A DNA stretch of 39,344 nt, taken from contig JAFXCR010000038.1 of the NCBI GenBank assembly GCA_017516465.1, positions 1 through 39,344 of the forward strand, written 5' to 3'. The position numbers and the translations under genes are program-made. Below are positions 9,180 through 28,256 of the stretch, one piece after another (position 1 is the first letter of the stretch; each line of letters begins with the position of its first letter). The stretch is from Ruminococcus sp. Its GTDB lineage: Bacteria; Bacillota; Clostridia; Oscillospirales; Ruminococcaceae. The notes under the pieces were generated by a model. That model saw only the letters and a program-made list of their open reading frames with translations. It searched no databases and was not told the DNA's origin.

Positions 9180-9222
9180 ATCATGTGGAAAAATGAATTT
9201 TCTGTCACATTCATGATGAATC

Positions 9223-9308
9223 AAGGCAATACCGCACAAAGCCTGTGTAAAAAATACACAGGCAGCTTAGTGCAAAGCCGTCTGGCGGGCTTTGTTCGGT
9301 ATTGCCTT
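9223..9308 (+). repeat. Inverted-repeat element, MITE-like, copy 1 (86 bp)
   Basis: The left end AAGGCAATACCGCACAAAGC (9223-9242) is matched by an inverted right end (9289-9308) at 19 of 20 positions. Inside is a 9-bp hairpin GCCTGTGTA/TACACAGGC (9241-9263), and CAAAGCC near 9273 can pair with GGCTTTG near 9288, competing with the outer stem. The same ends, and a shared right subterminal block GTGCAAAGCCGTC, recur in the same orientation at 22018-22192. It lies between a promoter and a start codon and encodes no protein, so it is either a non-autonomous mobile element or a structured leader RNA. Confidence 0.8.
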
Positions 9309-9331
9309 AAAAAAAGAAAATGGAGGATAAA

Positions 9332-19921: not shown

Positions 19922-19939
19922 AATGTCAATATTGAAAAT

Positions 19940-20209
19940 GCGATGAAGGGAAATAAAGCCTGTATAATTTTCACAGAGAGCTGTCGGTGGTGAAAGACAG
20001 TAAAACAAAACAGGTCATAGCTCCTCCCTGAGCATCCGGCTGAAAACCGCTTTGCGGAAATTAGGTTTGGACGGCTTCTCCCGTTACAGAGATATGCGTT
20101 AATCCGACGCAGATGAGTGGGTGCAATGCACCAAGAAGAGTGGTACCACGGAGTATCTCAGTTTGCAGCTTCGTCTCTTCCATACCTTGTGTATGGAGGA
20201 GGCTTTTTT
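19940..20209 (+). promoter_or_regulatory. T-box riboswitch, leucine specifier, upstream of leuA
   Basis: The leader starts with the usual purine-rich GATGAAGGGAAATAAAGCC, has a long stem I with the pattern GGTGGTGAAAGACAGTA, and ends stem I with CTGAGC. The specifier is read as CTC (20021-20023), five nucleotides before TGAGC, the normal distance, which codes for leucine. The T-box sequence GAGTGGTACCACG is at 20138-20150. The terminator is CTCTTCCATAC (20175-20185) pairing with GTATGGAGGAG (20191-20201), followed by TTTTTT. Uncharged tRNA-Leu would bind the specifier and the T-box and stabilise the antiterminator, turning leuA on during leucine shortage. Confidence 0.92.
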
Positions 20210-20248
20210 ATTATCTGATCGGATTAAAAATGATTGGAGGAAAATTTT

Positions 20249-21910
20249 ATGAAAAACATAAACAAGTACACCCGCCAGTTCTTTGAAGCTCCGGCAACTC
20301 AGATGAAATGGACTAAAAAATCATGTATCGAAAAAGCTCCCATCTGGTGCAGCGTCGATCTGCGTGACGGCAATCAGGCTCTTATAATCCCCATGAGTCT
20401 CGGTGAAAAACTTGAATTCTTCAGCAAGCTCGTTGAACTTGGCTTCAAGGAAATTGAAATCGGTTTTCCTGCCGCCTCCGAAACAGAATACGACTTCTGC
20501 CGTACACTTATCGAACAGAATATGATTCCCGATGACGTTACTATTCAGGTACTTACTCAGTCAAGAAAACACATCATCCACAAGACCTTTGAGGCTCTCA
20601 AGGGATGCAAAAATGCTATCGTTCATCTCTATAATTCGACCTCTCTCGCTCAGCGTGAACAGGTTTTCCGCAAGAGCAAGGAGGAAATCATTGAAATCGC
20701 TGTGACAGGTGCAAGGCTCTGCAAGGAATACCGTGAAAAATATGAGGGTAACTTCCGTTTTGAGTATTCCCCCGAAAGCTTTACCGGTACTGAACCGGAA
20801 TTCGCACTGGAGGTCTGCAATGCCGTACTCGATATATGGCAGCCGACTCCCGATGACAAGGCGATAATCAATCTGCCGGTAACTGTGCAGCTCTCAATGC
20901 CGCACGTCTACGCAAATCAAGTTGAATATATGTGCGACAACCTCAGATACAGGGAAAACGTTATCGTTTCGCTCCACCCCCACAACGACAGAGGATGTGC
21001 TGTCGCCGATACCGAAATGGGACTCCTCGCCGGTGCTGACCGTGTTGAGGGAACTCTTTTCGGAAACGGCGAAAGAACAGGCAACGTTGATATCATCACC
21101 CTTGCCATGAATATGTACTCTCAGGGCGTTGATCCGGAGCTTGATTTCTCTGATATCCCGTCAATTACGGAGCTTTACACCAAGGTCACAAGAATGGAAG
21201 TCCATGAGCGCTCACCCTATTCCGGAAAGCTCGTTTTTGCGGCATTCAGCGGCTCTCATCAGGACGCTATCGCAAAGGGCATGAAGTGGCGTGAGGACGG
21301 TAATTCCGAGCACTGGACAGTTCCCTATCTTCCCATTGATCCGGAAGATGTCGGCAGAGAATATTCCGCTGATGTTATCAGAATCAACAGTCAGTCAGGC
21401 AAAGGCGGCATTGGTTACATCCTTGAAACACGCTTCGGATATAATCTTCCCAAGAAAATGCGTGAGGCTCTCGGATACATGGTCAAGAGTGTTTCCGACC
21501 ACAAGCACAAGGAGCTTCTTCCCGACGAGATCTACCAGATATTCAAGACGAATTTCGTGGATATCACCGAGCCGCTTAAAATCACGAAAACAAGCTACGA
21601 CCGCAGCTACGGCATTGAAGCGACTGTAAGTCTTGAATTCAACGGCAGAGTTGCTTCTGCCACAAACAATGGTAATGGTCGTCTTGACGCCGTGAGCAAC
21701 GCTATCCGTTCCTATACCGGAATTGATTACAGCATCAACACCTATACGGAGCACGCTCTTGAGGTCGGCTCGGCTTCAAAGGCTGTTTCTTATGTGGAAA
21801 TTATCGGCGAAAACGGAAGCAGCTTCTGGGGAACAGGTATTGATACCGATATCGTGGAATCTTCCATTAAAGCTCTCGTAAGTGCTGTAAACAATATGCT
21901 TAAAGGCTGA
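20249..21910 (+). CDS. leuA: 2-isopropylmalate synthase (long-form LeuA)
   Basis: A 553-residue protein of the DRE-TIM metallolyase family, matching the longer LeuA type (about 550 residues) found in yeast and many Gram-positives. It has the HMGL-like signature DLRDGNQAL, the metal-site motif SLHPHNDRGCA and GTLFGNGERTGNVD, and a C-terminal LeuA dimer regulatory domain (about 430-553) that normally senses leucine. It condenses acetyl-CoA with 2-oxoisovalerate, committing carbon to leucine. ATG at 20249 follows TTGGAGG; the TTG five codons upstream is part of that ribosome binding site. Expression is controlled by the T-box leader. The remaining leu genes (leuC, leuD, leuB) are about 7 kb downstream. 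Confidence 0.93.
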   Translation: MKNINKYTRQFFEAPATQMKWTKKSCIEKAPIWCSVDLRDGNQALIIPMSLGEKLEFFSKLVELGFKEIEIGFPAASETEYDFCRTLIEQNMIPDDVTIQVLTQSRKHIIHKTFEALKGCKNAIVHLYNSTSLAQREQVFRKSKEEIIEIAVTGARLCKEYREKYEGNFRFEYSPESFTGTEPEFALEVCNAVLDIWQPTPDDKAIINLPVTVQLSMPHVYANQVEYMCDNLRYRENVIVSLHPHNDRGCAVADTEMGLLAGADRVEGTLFGNGERTGNVDIITLAMNMYSQGVDPELDFSDIPSITELYTKVTRMEVHERSPYSGKLVFAAFSGSHQDAIAKGMKWREDGNSEHWTVPYLPIDPEDVGREYSADVIRINSQSGKGGIGYILETRFGYNLPKKMREALGYMVKSVSDHKHKELLPDEIYQIFKTNFVDITEPLKITKTSYDRSYGIEATVSLEFNGRVASATNNGNGRLDAVSNAIRSYTGIDYSINTYTEHALEVGSASKAVSYVEIIGENGSSFWGTGIDTDIVESSIKALVSAVNNMLKG

Positions 21911-21972: not shown

Positions 21973-22001
21973 TTGATTTTATTAACCGAAGGTGTTATAA
22001 T
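21973..22001 (+). promoter_or_regulatory. Sigma-A promoter for the ilv leader transcript
   Basis: TTGATT (21973-21978) and TATAAT (21996-22001) with 17 bp spacing, 63 bp after leuA. The expected transcription start is about 10 nt before the inverted-repeat element at 22018. Confidence 0.8.
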
Positions 22002-22017
22002 TTAAATAAGAATATTC

Positions 22018-22192
22018 AAGGCAATACCGCACAAAGCTTGTGCGAAAGATGTGCAGACAGATTTTTCGTCAGATTGTATAGAAATATCGAAGGCATACTG
22101 ACGTATGTCAAGAGATTTCTGTGCAAAATGACGGAAAATATACAAACAGATTTCGTGCAAAGCCGTCAGGCGTGCTTTGTGCGGCATTGCCT
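22018..22192 (+). repeat. Inverted-repeat element, MITE-like, copy 2 (about 175 bp)
   Basis: The left end AAGGCAATACCGCACAAAGC (22018-22037) is identical to copy 1 at 9223-9242. The right end (22174-22192) matches it inverted at 18 of 19 positions. The right subterminal block GTGCAAAGCCGTC is also shared with copy 1. The longer interior contains nested pairings: TTTTCGTCA with TGACGGAAAA, AGAAAT with ATTTCT, and a terminal hairpin GGCATAC/GTATGTC. The whole element could fold into one long rod in the ilv leader RNA. No protein is encoded. Confidence 0.8.
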
Positions 22193-22219
22193 CAAAGTCT
22201 GAGCAAAGGAGCATTAATA

Positions 22220-22324
22220 ATGAAATCGGTCGTTATTCTTTCCGGTATAGTCATTATTAAGAGCGCAGTCATTACCATTTCCGACTGCCGCTTATCTTCA
22301 TTCTGCCCGCAGGACTTTGAGTAA
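22220..22324 (+). CDS. ilv leader peptide (34 residues, Val/Ile-rich)
   Basis: A small ORF with a good ribosome binding site (AAAGGAG, 7 nt before ATG) encodes MKSVVILSGIVIIKSAVITI followed by 14 ordinary residues. Of residues 4-20, four are Val, six Ile and one Leu. This is the composition of leader peptides such as E. coli ilvL, where ribosome stalling on scarce Val/Ile-tRNA decides whether downstream transcription continues. The ORF ends about 50 nt before a rho-independent terminator. It sits between a sigma-A promoter and ilvB. The function as an attenuator is supported by the RNA pairings described in the next entry. Confidence 0.85.
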   Translation: MKSVVILSGIVIIKSAVITISDCRLSSFCPQDFE

Positions 22325-22399
22325 TATTTGCCGGTACACTTTGCTGTACCCGTGCAGTGTCGCTTGAACAAAACCTCCGGCAGTCTGTCGGAGGTTTTT
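22265..22399 (+). promoter_or_regulatory. Transcription attenuator of ilvB (segments 1-4)
   Basis: Four segments can be read. Segment 1 is GCAGTC (22265-22270), inside the Ala16-Val17 codons. Segment 2 is GACTGCCG (22283-22290), just after the last Ile codon. Segment 3 contains CGGCAGTC (22378-22385). Segment 4 is CGGAGGTT (22389-22396). 1:2 pairs over 6 bp, 2:3 over 8 bp as an antiterminator, and 3:4 forms the terminator AACCTCCG/CGGAGGTT followed by TTTTTATATT. A ribosome stalled in the early Val/Ile codons would free segment 2 for pairing with 3 and allow ilvB expression; a ribosome reaching the stop codon would cover 2 and permit termination. Confidence 0.82.
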
Positions 22400-22454
22400 A
22401 TATTATAAATCAGGATGCACCGCCATCCTGAAACGTAAAGGATGAAACTTTATC

Positions 22455-24191
22455 ATGTTTATCTCAGGTGCAAAAATTATTGTAGAAACTCTCATTGAAC
22501 AGGGCTGCGATACCGTTTTCGGTTATCCGGGAGGTCAGGTTCTCAATATCTTCGATGAGCTTTACCTCAACAGCGATCGTATTAATCACGTCCTCGCTGC
22601 CCATGAACAGGGAGCCGCCCATGCTGCCGACGGATACGCAAGAGCTACCGGAAAGGTCGGAGTTGTTATTGCAACATCGGGTCCCGGTGCAACTAATCTC
22701 GTTACCGGAATCGCTACCGCTTATCTTGATTCTGTCCCTATGGTCGCTATTACCGGAAATGTTCCGTGCGACCTCATCGGCAGAGACAGTTTTCAGGAAG
22801 TTGATATTGTAGGTGTTACTATGCCTATCACAAAGCACAACTTCATCGTAAAGGATATAAACGAACTTGCTGATACTATCCGCATGGCTTTCAAAATCGC
22901 TAAATCAGGACGTCCCGGCCCCGTTGTCGTGGATATTCCCAAGGATGTCCAGATCGGAAAATGTGAGTTCGAGGCGCAGGCTCAGCCTGTAATTCCCTAT
23001 CCCGTTCTTTTCGCTGACGACGATCAGCTTAAAGAAGCTGCTGAAATGATAATGGCTGCTGAAAGACCTTACATCTACTTCGGCGGAGGTATCATCAGCG
23101 GCAGAGCTTCCGCAGAGGTTATGGCTCTTGCTGAAAAAATTGACGCTCCTATGGGATGCACTCTTATGGGACTTTCAGCTGTTCCGTATGACAACCCACG
23201 TTTCCTCGGAATGCAGGGTATGCACGGCCACTATGCCTCATCAATGGCACAGGATGAATCCGACCTCGTTATAGCTCTCGGTGCAAGATTCAGTGACAGA
23301 GCTACCGGCAACAAAAAACGATACAACAAGAATTTCAGAATAATACACATAGATATTGACGGTGCCGAGCTTCACAAAAATATTCCGGCTGAGCTTTCGA
23401 TCAACGCTGATATAAAGGACGCCGTTGAAAGACTCTGCTCTCTCGTGAATGAACAGAAACGTCCTCAGTGGAGCACCCGTATTTCTGAGCTTAAAGCTGA
23501 GGAAGAATGCCGCATAGAAAGTGCAAGAGAATGCTCCTTCCAGAAGGACTGCTCACAATGCACGAATCCCTGCCACAATACCGGAATTCCGGCAGAAAAC
23601 AGGCTTAATCCCTACGATATCATTGATATTGTAAGCTCCTATGCCAGAGACGCAATCGTTGCAACCGATGTCGGTCAGCATCAGATGTGGGCCGCACAGC
23701 GTTATCCCCTTAAAACACCAAGAACCTTCCTTACAAGCGGTGGTCTTGGTACTATGGGGTACGGTCTCGGTGCTGCTATCGGTGCCGCTGCCGCTTCCGG
23801 AAAATATTCCCTCCTCTTTACAGGCGACGGAAGCTTTGGCATGAATCTCAACGAGCTTGCAACTTCCGTTTCTCAGGGACTTCCTGTCGTTATCGTTATC
23901 ATGAACAACGGCGTTCTCGGAATGGTTCGTCAGTGGCAGACGCTTTTCTACGGAAAGCATTACTCCAATACCACTCTTAACCGTCAGACAGATTTCGTTA
24001 AGCTTGCAGAAGCATTCGGTGCAAAGGGCGTGAGGGTTTCCACAAAGGATGAACTCGAAAAGGCAGCAGAGGAGGCATTCTCATACGGAGGAACCTTCCT
24101 TATCGACTGTCTCGTGGACTGCAATGAATTCGTTCTTCCCATGCTTCCTCCCGGCGGTTCTATCGACGATATTATAACAGAAATCAAGTGA
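22455..24191 (+). CDS. ilvB: Acetolactate synthase large (catalytic) subunit
   Basis: A 578-residue thiamine-diphosphate enzyme. It has the catalytic glutamate E51 ([16 protein letters not shown]), a central FAD-binding domain ([13 protein letters not shown]) and the TPP/Mg motif [12 protein letters not shown]. It makes 2-acetolactate from two pyruvates and 2-aceto-2-hydroxybutyrate from pyruvate and 2-oxobutyrate, starting valine/leucine and isoleucine synthesis. An unusual cysteine cluster (C360, C366, C369, C373, with C352 nearby) lies in the linker before the TPP domain. AAAGGA lies about 12 nt before the ATG, a rather long spacing. Transcription is controlled by the leader-peptide attenuator upstream; ilvN follows directly. 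Confidence 0.93.
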
Positions 24192-24201
24192 GGTGTGTGA
24201 T

Positions 24202-24705
24202 ATGGAACAGTATGTAATCGGCGTTATCGTTTCAAACGTTTCAGGTGTACTCTCCCGTGTTTCGGGAATGTTCACACGGCGAGGCTTCAATATCGACAGT
24301 CTTACCGTGGGTGAAACGGAATCAAGCAGCTTTTCGCGAATTACCATTGCCTTTCACGGTGATGAGTACCTGAAGGATCGCATCCTCCTTCAGCTCCGCA
24401 AGCTTCACGATGTCAAGGAAGTAGAAGTCCTCCGGAGCAGCGAAACTGTTGTCCGCGAGCTTCTTCTCATAAAGGTAAGAAATACTCCGCAGTCAAGACA
24501 GGATATCATGACAGCTGTTGAGATATTCCGATCAAAGATCGTTGATTATTCCACAACGGCTCTTGTGTGCGAGCTTACCGGCGAAACCTCGAAGATCGAC
24601 GCTTTTATTGATCTTCTCAAGCCCTACGGCATTATGGAAATGTGCCGCACAGGTCTTGTTGCTATCGAAAGAGGCGAAAACTGCCTTAAAACCAAACGAT
24701 TATAA
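24202..24705 (+). CDS. ilvN: Acetolactate synthase small (regulatory) subunit
   Basis: A 167-residue protein with an N-terminal ACT domain (VIGVIVSNVSGVLSRVSGMF and RRGFNIDSLTVG) and the C-terminal ALS_ss domain (EIFRSKIVDYS, GLVAIERGE). It binds the catalytic subunit, raises its activity and confers valine feedback inhibition. The ATG at 24202 follows GAGGTG, which overlaps the ilvB stop codon, giving a 10-bp gap and probable coupling. The GTG three codons upstream lies within that ribosome binding site and is less likely. Confidence 0.93.
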   Translation: MEQYVIGVIVSNVSGVLSRVSGMFTRRGFNIDSLTVGETESSSFSRITIAFHGDEYLKDRILLQLRKLHDVKEVEVLRSSETVVRELLLIKVRNTPQSRQDIMTAVEIFRSKIVDYSTTALVCELTGETSKIDAFIDLLKPYGIMEMCRTGLVAIERGENCLKTKRL

Positions 24706-24743: not shown

Positions 24744-25796
<1,053 letters not shown>

Positions 25797-25936: not shown

Positions 25937-26575
25937 GTGACAAGTTCATATATAAAAAAATTCAGACCGGATAAGCTTCATCTGATTTCGGCTGCATTGC
26001 TGCTCATCGCAATAATTCTTTTTATCAGCGGTGCTTACAGGGCGTTCCGCATAATGGGATGTGCAGATCAGTCAGAGCTTTTCAATGAAAGCGATGTCCG
26101 GAAAAACAGAAGTCTTACCTTCAGTGCAAAGCCTGTGGCGGGAGCGCTTGAAGGAACTGAAAATCATAATGCTATCGTTTTTGAACAGGTTTCCAAGGGG
26201 ATAATGTCAGATTATGAAATCATGATCGTAAATGTCGCCGGAAAATACAGGTATGTTGCCGTAGAAAAGGATTCCGAAGAACACCGCAGACTTATGAACG
26301 GTGAGGAAGTTACAGGATATTTTTCTGACAAATACAGCAGCGATTTTCTGGAATATATCTCTAAAATGGATGATTTTTACGACGAAAACAGCGTTATCGC
26401 CGAAAAGGAATGTTCTGATTCAGGAATTATAATCGTTGACCGTAACAAGGAAACAATGAGTTTTGCATGGGGATTCCCATTTCTTGCAGCAGGACTTCTT
26501 CTGCTGTATAAAGCCGGCAGTCCGTTTTTCTTTATGCCGGAGGATACTCCCGACAACAAGACAGAAAACAAATAA
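25937..26575 (+). CDS. Bitopic membrane protein of unknown function
   Basis: A 212-residue protein with a membrane segment near each end (about 15-36, [16 protein letters not shown]; and about 176-196, [17 protein letters not shown]) and a polar extracytoplasmic region of about 140 residues between them. I recognise no motif. The start is GTG at 25937, preceded by AAGGGG at 6-nt spacing. It lies between ilvC and ilvD on the same strand, 19 bp before the ilvD start, so it is probably co-transcribed with ilvD, although no reason for a membrane protein in this pathway is visible. Confidence 0.65.
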
Positions 26576-26594
26576 ATTTTTTGAGGTGAAAAAA

Positions 26595-28256
26595 ATGAGC
26601 GGAAATTATTTTTGCGAGGGTGTTGAAAAGGCATCGCAGCGTTCCCTTTTCAATGCGCTCGGACATACAAAGGAAGAAATGAAGCGTCCTCTCGTAGGTA
26701 TCGTTTCATCATACAATGAGATTGTTCCCGGTCACATGAATATTGACAAGATTGTTGAAGCCGTGAAGCTCGGCGTGGCTATGGGCGGCGGAACTCCGGT
26801 GGTATTCCCTGCAATTGCTGTCTGCGACGGTATCGCTATGGGACACACCGGAATGAAGTATTCCCTTGTAACCCGTGATCTTATTGCCGATTCCACAGAA
26901 TGTATGGCTCTTGCTCATCATTTCGACGCTCTCGTAATGGTGCCCAACTGCGACAAGAATGTTCCCGGACTTCTCATGGCAGCGGCACGTCTCAACATCC
27001 CCACTATCTTCGTAAGCGGCGGCCCGATGCTTGCAGGTCACGTAAAGGGAAAGAAAACAAGCCTTTCTTCCATGTTCGAGGCTGTCGGAGCCTATACTGC
27101 CGGAAAAATGTCCCTTGAAGACGTTGAGGAATACGAAAACAATGCCTGTCCGACCTGCGGCTCATGCTCTGGTATGTATACTGCAAATTCCATGAACTGT
27201 CTTACTGAGGTTCTCGGTATGGGACTTCGTGGAAACGGCACGATTCCGGCTGTATACTCAGACCGTATCCGCCTTGCAAAAATGGCTGGTATGCAGGTTA
27301 TGGAGCTTTACAGACAGAATATCCGCCCGCTTGACATCATGACCGAAAAGGCTTTTATGAACGCTCTTACAGCCGATATGGCTCTTGGCTGCTCAACAAA
27401 CAGTATGCTCCACCTTCCGGCTATCGCCAACGAGTGCGGAGTAAATATAAATCTCGATATCGCAAACGATATCAGTGCAAGAACTCCTAACCTCTGTCAC
27501 CTTGCTCCGGCTGGTCACACTTATATGGAAGACCTCAACGAGGCTGGCGGCGTTTATGCCGTACTCAACGAGCTTTCCAAGAAGAATCTCATCAGCCTCG
27601 ACTGCATGACCGTTACCGGAAAGACTGTCGGCGAGAATATCTCCGGCTGTATAAACAAGGATCCCGAAACTATCCGTCCTGTTGAAAATCCATACAGCGA
27701 GACCGGAGGAATTGCAGTTCTTCGCGGAAATCTTGCTCCCGACGGCTGCGTTGTAAAAAGAAGTGCCGTTGCTCCCGAAATGCTTGCTCACAAGGGAACT
27801 GCAAGAGTTTTCGACAGCGAGGAAGAAGCTATAAAGGTTATCTACGAAGGAGGAATCAAAGCCGGAGATGTCGTTGTTATCCGCTATGAAGGCCCTGCCG
27901 GCGGTCCCGGAATGAGAGAAATGCTCTCGCCCACATCAGCAATTCAGGGTGCCGGTCTTGGTTCATCCGTTGCACTCATCACTGACGGACGCTTCTCAGG
28001 AGCTACCCGTGGTGCGGCTATTGGTCACGTTTCTCCCGAAGCTGTAAACGGCGGTACTATCGCTTACGTCAAAGACGGCGATATCATTTCTATCGACATT
28101 CCCAATTACTCCATTAATCTTGAAATCTCCGACGAGGAGCTTGCAGAACGCAGAAAAACTATGCCTATAAAGAAAAAGGAAAATATCACAGGCTATCTCA
28201 AACGCTATGCGGCACAGGTTTCCTCTGCTGATAAGGGAGCTATCATCAATAAATAA
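26595..28256 (+). CDS. ilvD: Dihydroxy-acid dehydratase
   Basis: A 553-residue IlvD/Edd family protein. Iron-sulfur ligands are expected in [11 protein letters not shown] and [18 protein letters not shown]; the C-terminal domain has the conserved [12 protein letters not shown] and [11 protein letters not shown]. It dehydrates 2,3-dihydroxy-isovalerate and 2,3-dihydroxy-3-methylvalerate to the 2-oxo acids, and is oxygen-sensitive. ATG at 26595 is chosen because GAGGTG lies just upstream and the protein then starts like homologues; the open frame continues 44 codons further back into the preceding gene, without meaning. Confidence 0.94.

Follow-up and report, generated by a model that had tools for sequence, protein, structure and literature searches.

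The question raised by this locus is how a Ruminococcus genome controls its ilvB operon. Leader-peptide control of the ilv genes is established in enteric bacteria, and its mechanism is well known from E. coli. An earlier note, made from the sequence alone, had proposed a complete attenuator of this kind directly ahead of ilvB. The window analyzed here is the whole 39,344-nt stretch, from an assembly of 1.99 Mb in 55 contigs that is ≈95% complete. On its forward strand, leuA (20234–21910, assigned by domain search) is the upstream neighbor of the ilvB leader, which is followed by ilvB (22455–24191), encoding the large subunit of acetolactate synthase with TPP enzyme domains, ilvN (24193–24705; small subunit, ALS_ss_C and ACT), ilvC (24759–25796; ketol-acid reductoisomerase, KARI_N and KARI_C) and ilvD (26463–28256; dihydroxy-acid dehydratase, ILVD_EDD). 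The actual start of ilvD may lie further in, and its co-transcription with ilvB is presumed. The ilvB promoter, TTGATT and TATAAT separated by 17 nt, with a TG ahead of the −10, is located at 21973–22001 on the same strand, as are all features described below unless stated. Our analysis indicates that the region between this promoter and ilvB is very probably a ribosome-mediated transcription attenuator, tying expression of the ilvB operon to the supply of charged tRNA-Val and tRNA-Ile.

The leader ORF (22220–22324) runs from an ATG at 22220 to a TAA at 22322–22324 and has 34 codons plus stop (MKSVVILSGIVIIKSAVITISDCRLSSFCPQDFE). It is preceded by a Shine–Dalgarno (SD) sequence, AAAGGAG, at 22205–22211, conserved in an alignment of 57 leaders. 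Val is specified by codons 4, 5, 11 and 17, and Ile by codons 6, 10, 12, 13, 18 and 20, making 10 of the 17 codons between 4 and 20 (binomial P ≈ 2 × 10−5 at an assumed 14% Ile + Val, for a stretch that was picked after inspection). Segment 1, GCAGTC, lies at 22265–22270 and segment 2, GACTGCCG, at 22283–22290; the partner of segment 2 is segment 1 or, in the window's clade, segment 3. Segment 2′, ATTCTGCC, at 22300–22307, is an antiterminator strand conserved in the genus. A hairpin is predicted to span the stop codon (22316–22368), nested within the antiterminator, and the intrinsic terminator 3:4, with 13 pairs, occupies 22370–22398, segment 3 being CGGCAGTC at 22378–22385. The ORF with its own ribosome binding site and its ten Val/Ile codons, the three pairings named in the earlier note and the T-run terminator ahead of ilvB were thus all present where that note had placed them. 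Folding of 22180–22420 gave −83.7 kcal/mol (z = −6.9), and none of 200 shuffles folded equally well. A short ORF with start, stop and SD, presumably translated, lies upstream of a structural gene; its codons are enriched for end products of the pathway, an intrinsic terminator stands between it and the first gene, and, judged by sequence and folding, the antiterminator and the terminator are mutually exclusive.

A conserved Val/Ile-rich ORF in related genomes had been suggested as a check on the proposal. A match to ilvB was found in 96 of 100 genomes of the genus, and the upstream region was examined in 90 of these; two genomes (G005 and G055) were left out because the ilvB start was missing from the match, and four (G046, G053, G056 and G060) because their matches were in pieces, others of the same sort being kept. 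Using a profile built from nine leader peptides of these loci, the window's included, we found a homologous leader ORF in 58 of the 90 regions (E < 0.05 within the set; the nine seeds are among the 58), which is the strongest evidence against a chance arrangement. All 58 had a hairpin and T-run ahead of ilvB, and ahead of each ORF the best match to the TTGATT-17-TATAAT promoter was 11 or 12 of 12. The leader was present with 44 of the 50 best ilvB matches and with 14 of the other 40. The remaining 32 loci had no recognizable leader, showing that the system is dispensable, and one leader (L166) had a shortened frame and no predicted antiterminator. At another locus (L048), inspection by eye showed that the promoter and terminator were kept, the leader ORF was missing and another inverted repeat was inserted; it is possible that this attenuator was lost through insertion. 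When the profile was run against 197 genomes from 125 genera of the family, there were three matches, all in the window's genus and including its own genome (E ≤ 1e-4), and none in the 194 genomes from the 124 other genera, where diverged leaders would escape the search.

Three alignments were made from the 58 leaders: one of 57 (A1), omitting a near-duplicate (L030), a peptide alignment (A2) without 10 near-duplicates or peptides with odd starts or frames, and a third (A3), which served for the −35 region, without seven leaders belonging to the window clade, carrying inserts or duplicated. Among the 57 leaders, Ile and Val account for 38.0% of codons 2–23 and 4.5% of those that follow, while Leu accounts for 2.6% and 9.4%, respectively. 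The most constant ungapped positions are Ile12 (52/57), Ile13 (51/57) and Val17 (52/57), and the invariant columns fall in the start codon, the Val/Ile codons and the antiterminator strand. A peptide consensus, MRxVxIxSGIVIIxGAVxxxSDCxLxSFCP, is recognizable over the genus. However, in 62 pairs of leaders, 540 non-synonymous codon differences were counted against 186 synonymous ones, and the differences at codon positions 1–3 (285, 313 and 407) showed a weak position bias, suggesting that the peptide itself is not strongly kept.

The aligned leaders changed our view of which strands form the antiterminator. Throughout the genus, it is segment 2′, ATTCTGCC, that is complementary to the terminator's GGCAGAAT. 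Of the 57 leaders, only 4, all from the window's clade, can form the whole of the 2:3 pairing put forward originally, GACTGCCG:CGGCAGTC, so that it holds for this clade and does not describe the genus. The terminator loop is GTC or GTT in the window's clade and mostly GAA in the other leaders, a difference that weakens 2′:3 and completes 2:3. Taken together, the 57 aligned leaders suggest that the antiterminator strand was exchanged, from 2′ to 2, in one clade, which would offer a snapshot of attenuator evolution. The geometry of the ORF also differs from that first supposed. In the window, 31 nt separate segment 2 from the stop codon, and a ribosome at the stop would leave segment 2 uncovered; the claim that it is masked there was wrong. 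Segment 2′ is the strand within reach: it ends 14 nt ahead of the stop in the window, the commonest distance in the genus is 17 nt (27/57), and in 33 of 57 leaders the antiterminator strand lies within the ORF at one or other of these distances. A ribosome at the stop would abut or cover 2′, not segment 2.

Compensatory changes had been expected in all three stems. Helices 1:2 and 3:4 bear this out: 86.4% of cells are paired in the 57 leaders, with 35 double-changed cells versus 12.3 in shuffles (0/500 as high) and nine pairs having double changes versus 5.6 (5/500). As a genus-wide element, 2:3 was rejected, with 63.3% of cells paired, no better than shuffles (312/500 as high). In the 2′:3 core (columns 142–148), 94.6% of cells are paired, and C–G is replaced by U–A in six leaders and by G–C in two; to judge by their peptides, the six belong to one clade. 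The 2′:3 and stop-hairpin pairs together have 18 double-changed cells versus 6.7 in shuffles (0/500), although one slid version has 20, and pairs carrying double changes (7 vs. 4.7; 48/500) and further pair types (18 vs. 17.2; 206/500) are hardly more numerous than in the shuffles. These shuffles ignore the relatedness of the leaders, and independent events are few.

To relate the pairings to the position of the ribosome, the window RNA ahead of a ribosome placed at several points along the ORF was folded. Segment 3 was predicted to pair with segment 2 when codon 13, 17 or 18 occupied the A-site. At the earlier positions tested, at codons 20–25 or with no ribosome, it was predicted to pair with the 2′ region, and from codon 27 on, 2′ became unavailable and the terminator remained. 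When upstream RNA was also allowed to pair, excluding the repeat described below, the predicted antiterminator probability in the window was 0.97–0.99 at codons 12, 13, 17 and 18 and 0.00 with the ribosome at the stop. The same tests were applied to 27 representatives of the 57 leaders, less than 80% alike. Folding only the RNA ahead, 26 of 27 reached ≥0.9 averaged over the Val/Ile codons and ≤0.1 at the last codons, a result that shows little beyond the need for a free 2′. With upstream RNA included, 15 of 27 reached an antiterminator probability of ≥0.9 at stall codons, and with the ribosome at the stop, 17 of 27 gave ≤0.2 and seven gave ≥0.8. The window thus shows a clean switch in this model, which not every relative does. 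Without a ribosome, the probability ranged inconsistently from 0.0 to 1.0 across representatives. As a folding model, the mechanism thus has good support in the window, and its modelling elsewhere is incomplete.

We propose that the switch would work as follows. Transcription would start a few nucleotides past TATAAT and continue across the inserted repeat, with translation of the leader ORF following behind the RNA polymerase. A shortage of Val or Ile would stall the ribosome within codons 4–20. A ribosome with codon 13, 17 or 18 in its A-site would cover segment 1 and free segment 2 for segment 3, preventing the terminator and allowing read-through; at earlier stalls, 1:2 could form and the downstream 2′ region would take up segment 3. 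If both amino acids are plentiful, the ribosome would continue past about codon 27 to the stop and mask segment 2′, 1:2 would close behind it, and the terminator 3:4 would form.

The leader may also be able to close upon itself. A long-range stem, P0, is predicted between CTCAAAGTC at 22191–22199 and GACTTTGAG at 22313–22321, in the last codons of the ORF. Across the 27 representatives, the pairing of the SD region with a leader's own ORF end was stronger than with swapped ends (−12.8 vs. −10.8 kcal/mol; 0/5000 permutations as good), and the own end beat its row's median in 19 of 27. Once the ORF has been translated a first time, such pairing may keep the leader shut. In many relatives, the SD arm of the leader (ATCAGTAAGGAGCG type) finds its complement in a strand of CGCTCCTTATTGAT type that overlaps the −35 and extends just upstream of it, and a similar strand is found at the end of the leader ORF in relatives with this −35 arm. 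Among 26 representatives, the own −35 strand paired with the SD arm at −13.25 versus −10.39 when swapped (0/5000) and beat the row's median in 21, while a control pair showed nothing. In the columns of this helix, 72.0% of cells are paired versus 69.0% in shuffles (2/500 as high) and at most 55.3% in slid versions, whereas pairs changed on both sides are fewer than in the shuffles (6 vs. 7.8), making the column support mixed. The window's clade lacks the −35 arm (−3.3 to −5.5 kcal/mol).

The −35 arm could act in read-through RNA, as a hairpin, or in the DNA, as an operator. In the former case, the −35 strand would be absent from RNA made from the ilvB promoter and present in RNA running in from leuA, where it would hide the leader SD, prevent translation and lead to termination; the hairpin would tell the attenuator where its transcript began. 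We consider it rather doubtful that the arm insulates a Leu-controlled leuA from Val/Ile-controlled ilv genes in this way. A dependence of the complementarity on an upstream leuA was not clear, strong arms being present also at three loci (L028, L038 and L039) where no leuA was found. Nor was a second promoter ahead of the arm general: 15 sites were found in 13 of 44 spacers versus 7.8 in mononucleotide shuffles (1/200).

Several other explanations for the region were weighed against the attenuator. In one, ilvB is controlled by a metabolite riboswitch, a T-box or a protein-binding leader, and the small ORF has no role in this. In its favor, folding predicts a compact, multi-branched structure for the leader, much as in aptamers, and control of Firmicutes ilv genes by ppGpp riboswitches and T-boxes has been described (PMC10272879, PMC5794164). 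However, no Rfam family matched the ilvB leader at gathering score, and the best sub-threshold match, RF00514 (His_leader; 30.4 bits vs. a cut-off of 49), is itself a leader-peptide attenuator; identity with that family was rejected on its score and on the lack of a His codon in the leader ORF. Invariant columns of the alignment fall, as noted, within the start codon, the Val/Ile codons and the strand of the antiterminator, and we regard this explanation as very unlikely. Within the window, the T-box family (RF00230) matched only at leuA (19934–20181; 101.5 bits, cut-off 93), where alignment makes CUC (Leu) the most likely specifier; leuA and ilvB thus appear to be under different RNA sensors. 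The genome has seven T-box matches, five of them above the cut-off. A T-box replacing the leader in leaderless loci was also rejected on a scan of 20 of these 32 loci, none of which matched an Rfam family at gathering score. CodY had no match in the ≈95% complete genome, while a control search recovered it from both B. subtilis and L. lactis, and control of the ilvB operon by CodY was rejected.

It might also be supposed that the hairpin is merely the terminator of leuA and the Val/Ile-rich ORF a chance frame. A leuA terminator is needed somewhere, and a simple strict scan found none between leuA and the ilvB promoter in the 44 loci with leuA upstream, the window included. Yet the promoter precedes both ORF and terminator, homologues of the ORF stand at 58 of 90 loci, Ile and Val content collapses past codon 23, and the terminator loop is complementary to the ORF; in addition, leuA was not found at 14 of the 58 leader loci (upstream sequence to ≈1 kb, some of it ending at a contig end). 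These observations make a leuA terminator with a chance frame highly improbable. A function of the peptide, whether as an arrest peptide under regulation or as a small protein, would fit the consensus recognizable over the genus, but the Cys and Phe codons that are conserved fall on the RNA strands GACTGC and TTCTGCC, non-synonymous differences outnumber synonymous ones, and one locus (L190) bears a different Ile/Val-rich ORF that the profile does not match. An active peptide is therefore extremely unlikely. The leader-peptide attenuator proposed for ilvB is the reading best matched by the conserved Val/Ile ORF and antiterminator strand, the covariation of 1:2 and 3:4, and a genome in which ilvB has no T-box and CodY is not detected.

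In layout, the Ruminococcus leader resembles the enteric ilvL/ivbL leaders: a Val/Ile-rich ORF that has an SD of its own precedes acetolactate synthase genes, and an antiterminator is opposed to an intrinsic terminator. The two differ in that the control codons here are Ile and Val with little Leu, and in that the Ruminococcus antiterminator strand sits inside the ORF.

To regard leader-peptide control as foreign to Firmicutes would be too strong, since branched-chain amino acid (BCAA) leaders in S. aureus and His leaders in Bacillus and Eubacteriales have been published (PMC5794164, PMC2965389, PMC9413887). The S. aureus ilvD leader also provides leader-peptide attenuation of ilv genes in a Firmicute; its peptide is Leu-rich, 26 aa long and combined with CodY, unlike the Ile/Val leader of a Ruminococcus genome in which no CodY was found (PMC5794164). 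The same source cites leader peptides of Corynebacterium and predicted BCAA leader peptides of Lactococcus and Streptococcus. BCAA-rich uORFs ahead of ilvB are likewise described for the ilvB-II motif, confined to Corynebacterium, where attenuation has been shown, and for ilvB-OMG, from various phyla, where it has been proposed (PMC10272879); we compared these with the Ruminococcus leader by description, the leader having no Rfam match. His leaders have been reported or predicted in Bacillus and Eubacteriales (PMC2965389, PMC9413887), and those of Eubacteriales and Erysipelotrichales place leader-peptide attenuation inside Clostridia and relatives, there with histidine genes and His codons (PMC9413887). 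The T-box, as noted, is present at the neighboring leuA and not at ilvB. The ilv motifs of Corynebacterium, Veillonella and Leptospira are described in PMC11109978 and PMC8632094, in which a term search returned no mention of Ruminococcus by name. Leader-peptide control of ilv genes is already known, Firmicutes included; as far as we found, no ilv leader from Ruminococcus or Clostridia is described among the papers listed by our searches, in a literature from which subscription papers are mostly absent. What the locus adds is a probable ribosome-based sensor in Ruminococcus that is specific for Val/Ile. It stands next to leuA with its Leu T-box, in a genome without detectable CodY, and the branched-chain pathway would be divided between two RNA sensors of different kinds. 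The set of leaders also provides ready natural variants for reporter tests.

We also searched another set of 79 ilvB upstream regions for SD-preceded ORFs with at least nine Ile, Val or Leu in 12 codons. Four of them (L056, L072, L073 and L114) had such an ORF, versus 1 of 1580 shuffles, none of the four resembling the genus leader in peptide sequence. With a strict scan, a terminator was flagged in L073 alone; by eye, the folds of L056 and L072 have a hairpin followed by a T-rich stretch, and that of L114 has none. The BCAA-rich leader ORFs of L056, L072 and L073, with probable terminators, come from other Clostridia, Oribacterium sinus among them. On the sequences, such unrelated leader peptides in other Clostridia suggest a repeated origin. 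Two further regions of the 79 (L051 and L054) carry the genus leader and may duplicate genomes in the set of 100.

Between the promoter and the leader ORF, the window carries a 172-bp repeat (22020–22191), which the earlier note had overlooked, flanked by copies of TCAA at 22016–22019 and 22192–22195, identified as a target-site duplication by comparison with the empty site in L022, the nearest relative (IlvB 96% identical), where the sequence TATTCAAAGTC is uninterrupted. Its inverted arms, 22019–22037 and 22174–22192, are 95% complementary. There were at least 36 matches to 22005–22210 in the same genome, this copy included and the pieces of one copy counted separately (40 of 62 candidates scored). 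The repeat was found in 12 of 24 genomes of the genus, its own included, and in none of 16 outside it (E ≤ 1e-6 for both). Being short, non-coding and multicopy, with terminal inverted repeats and a target-site duplication, it is MITE-like. The insertion adds ≈176 nt to the 5′ end of the RNA and leaves the promoter, SD, ORF and P0 intact. In the full transcript, the repeat is predicted to fold on itself, and the part of the 22180–22420 fold that reached into its end was dropped. Near this place, shorter stretches of different extra sequence are present in two relatives (L023 and L024). A short copy of the repeat, of which only the two ends matched, was observed at 9221–9311, directly ahead of an ORF at 9320 with no Pfam match. 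Within the repeat at 22111–22083, on the minus strand, there is a promoter-like TTGACA-17-GATATT directed away from ilvB.
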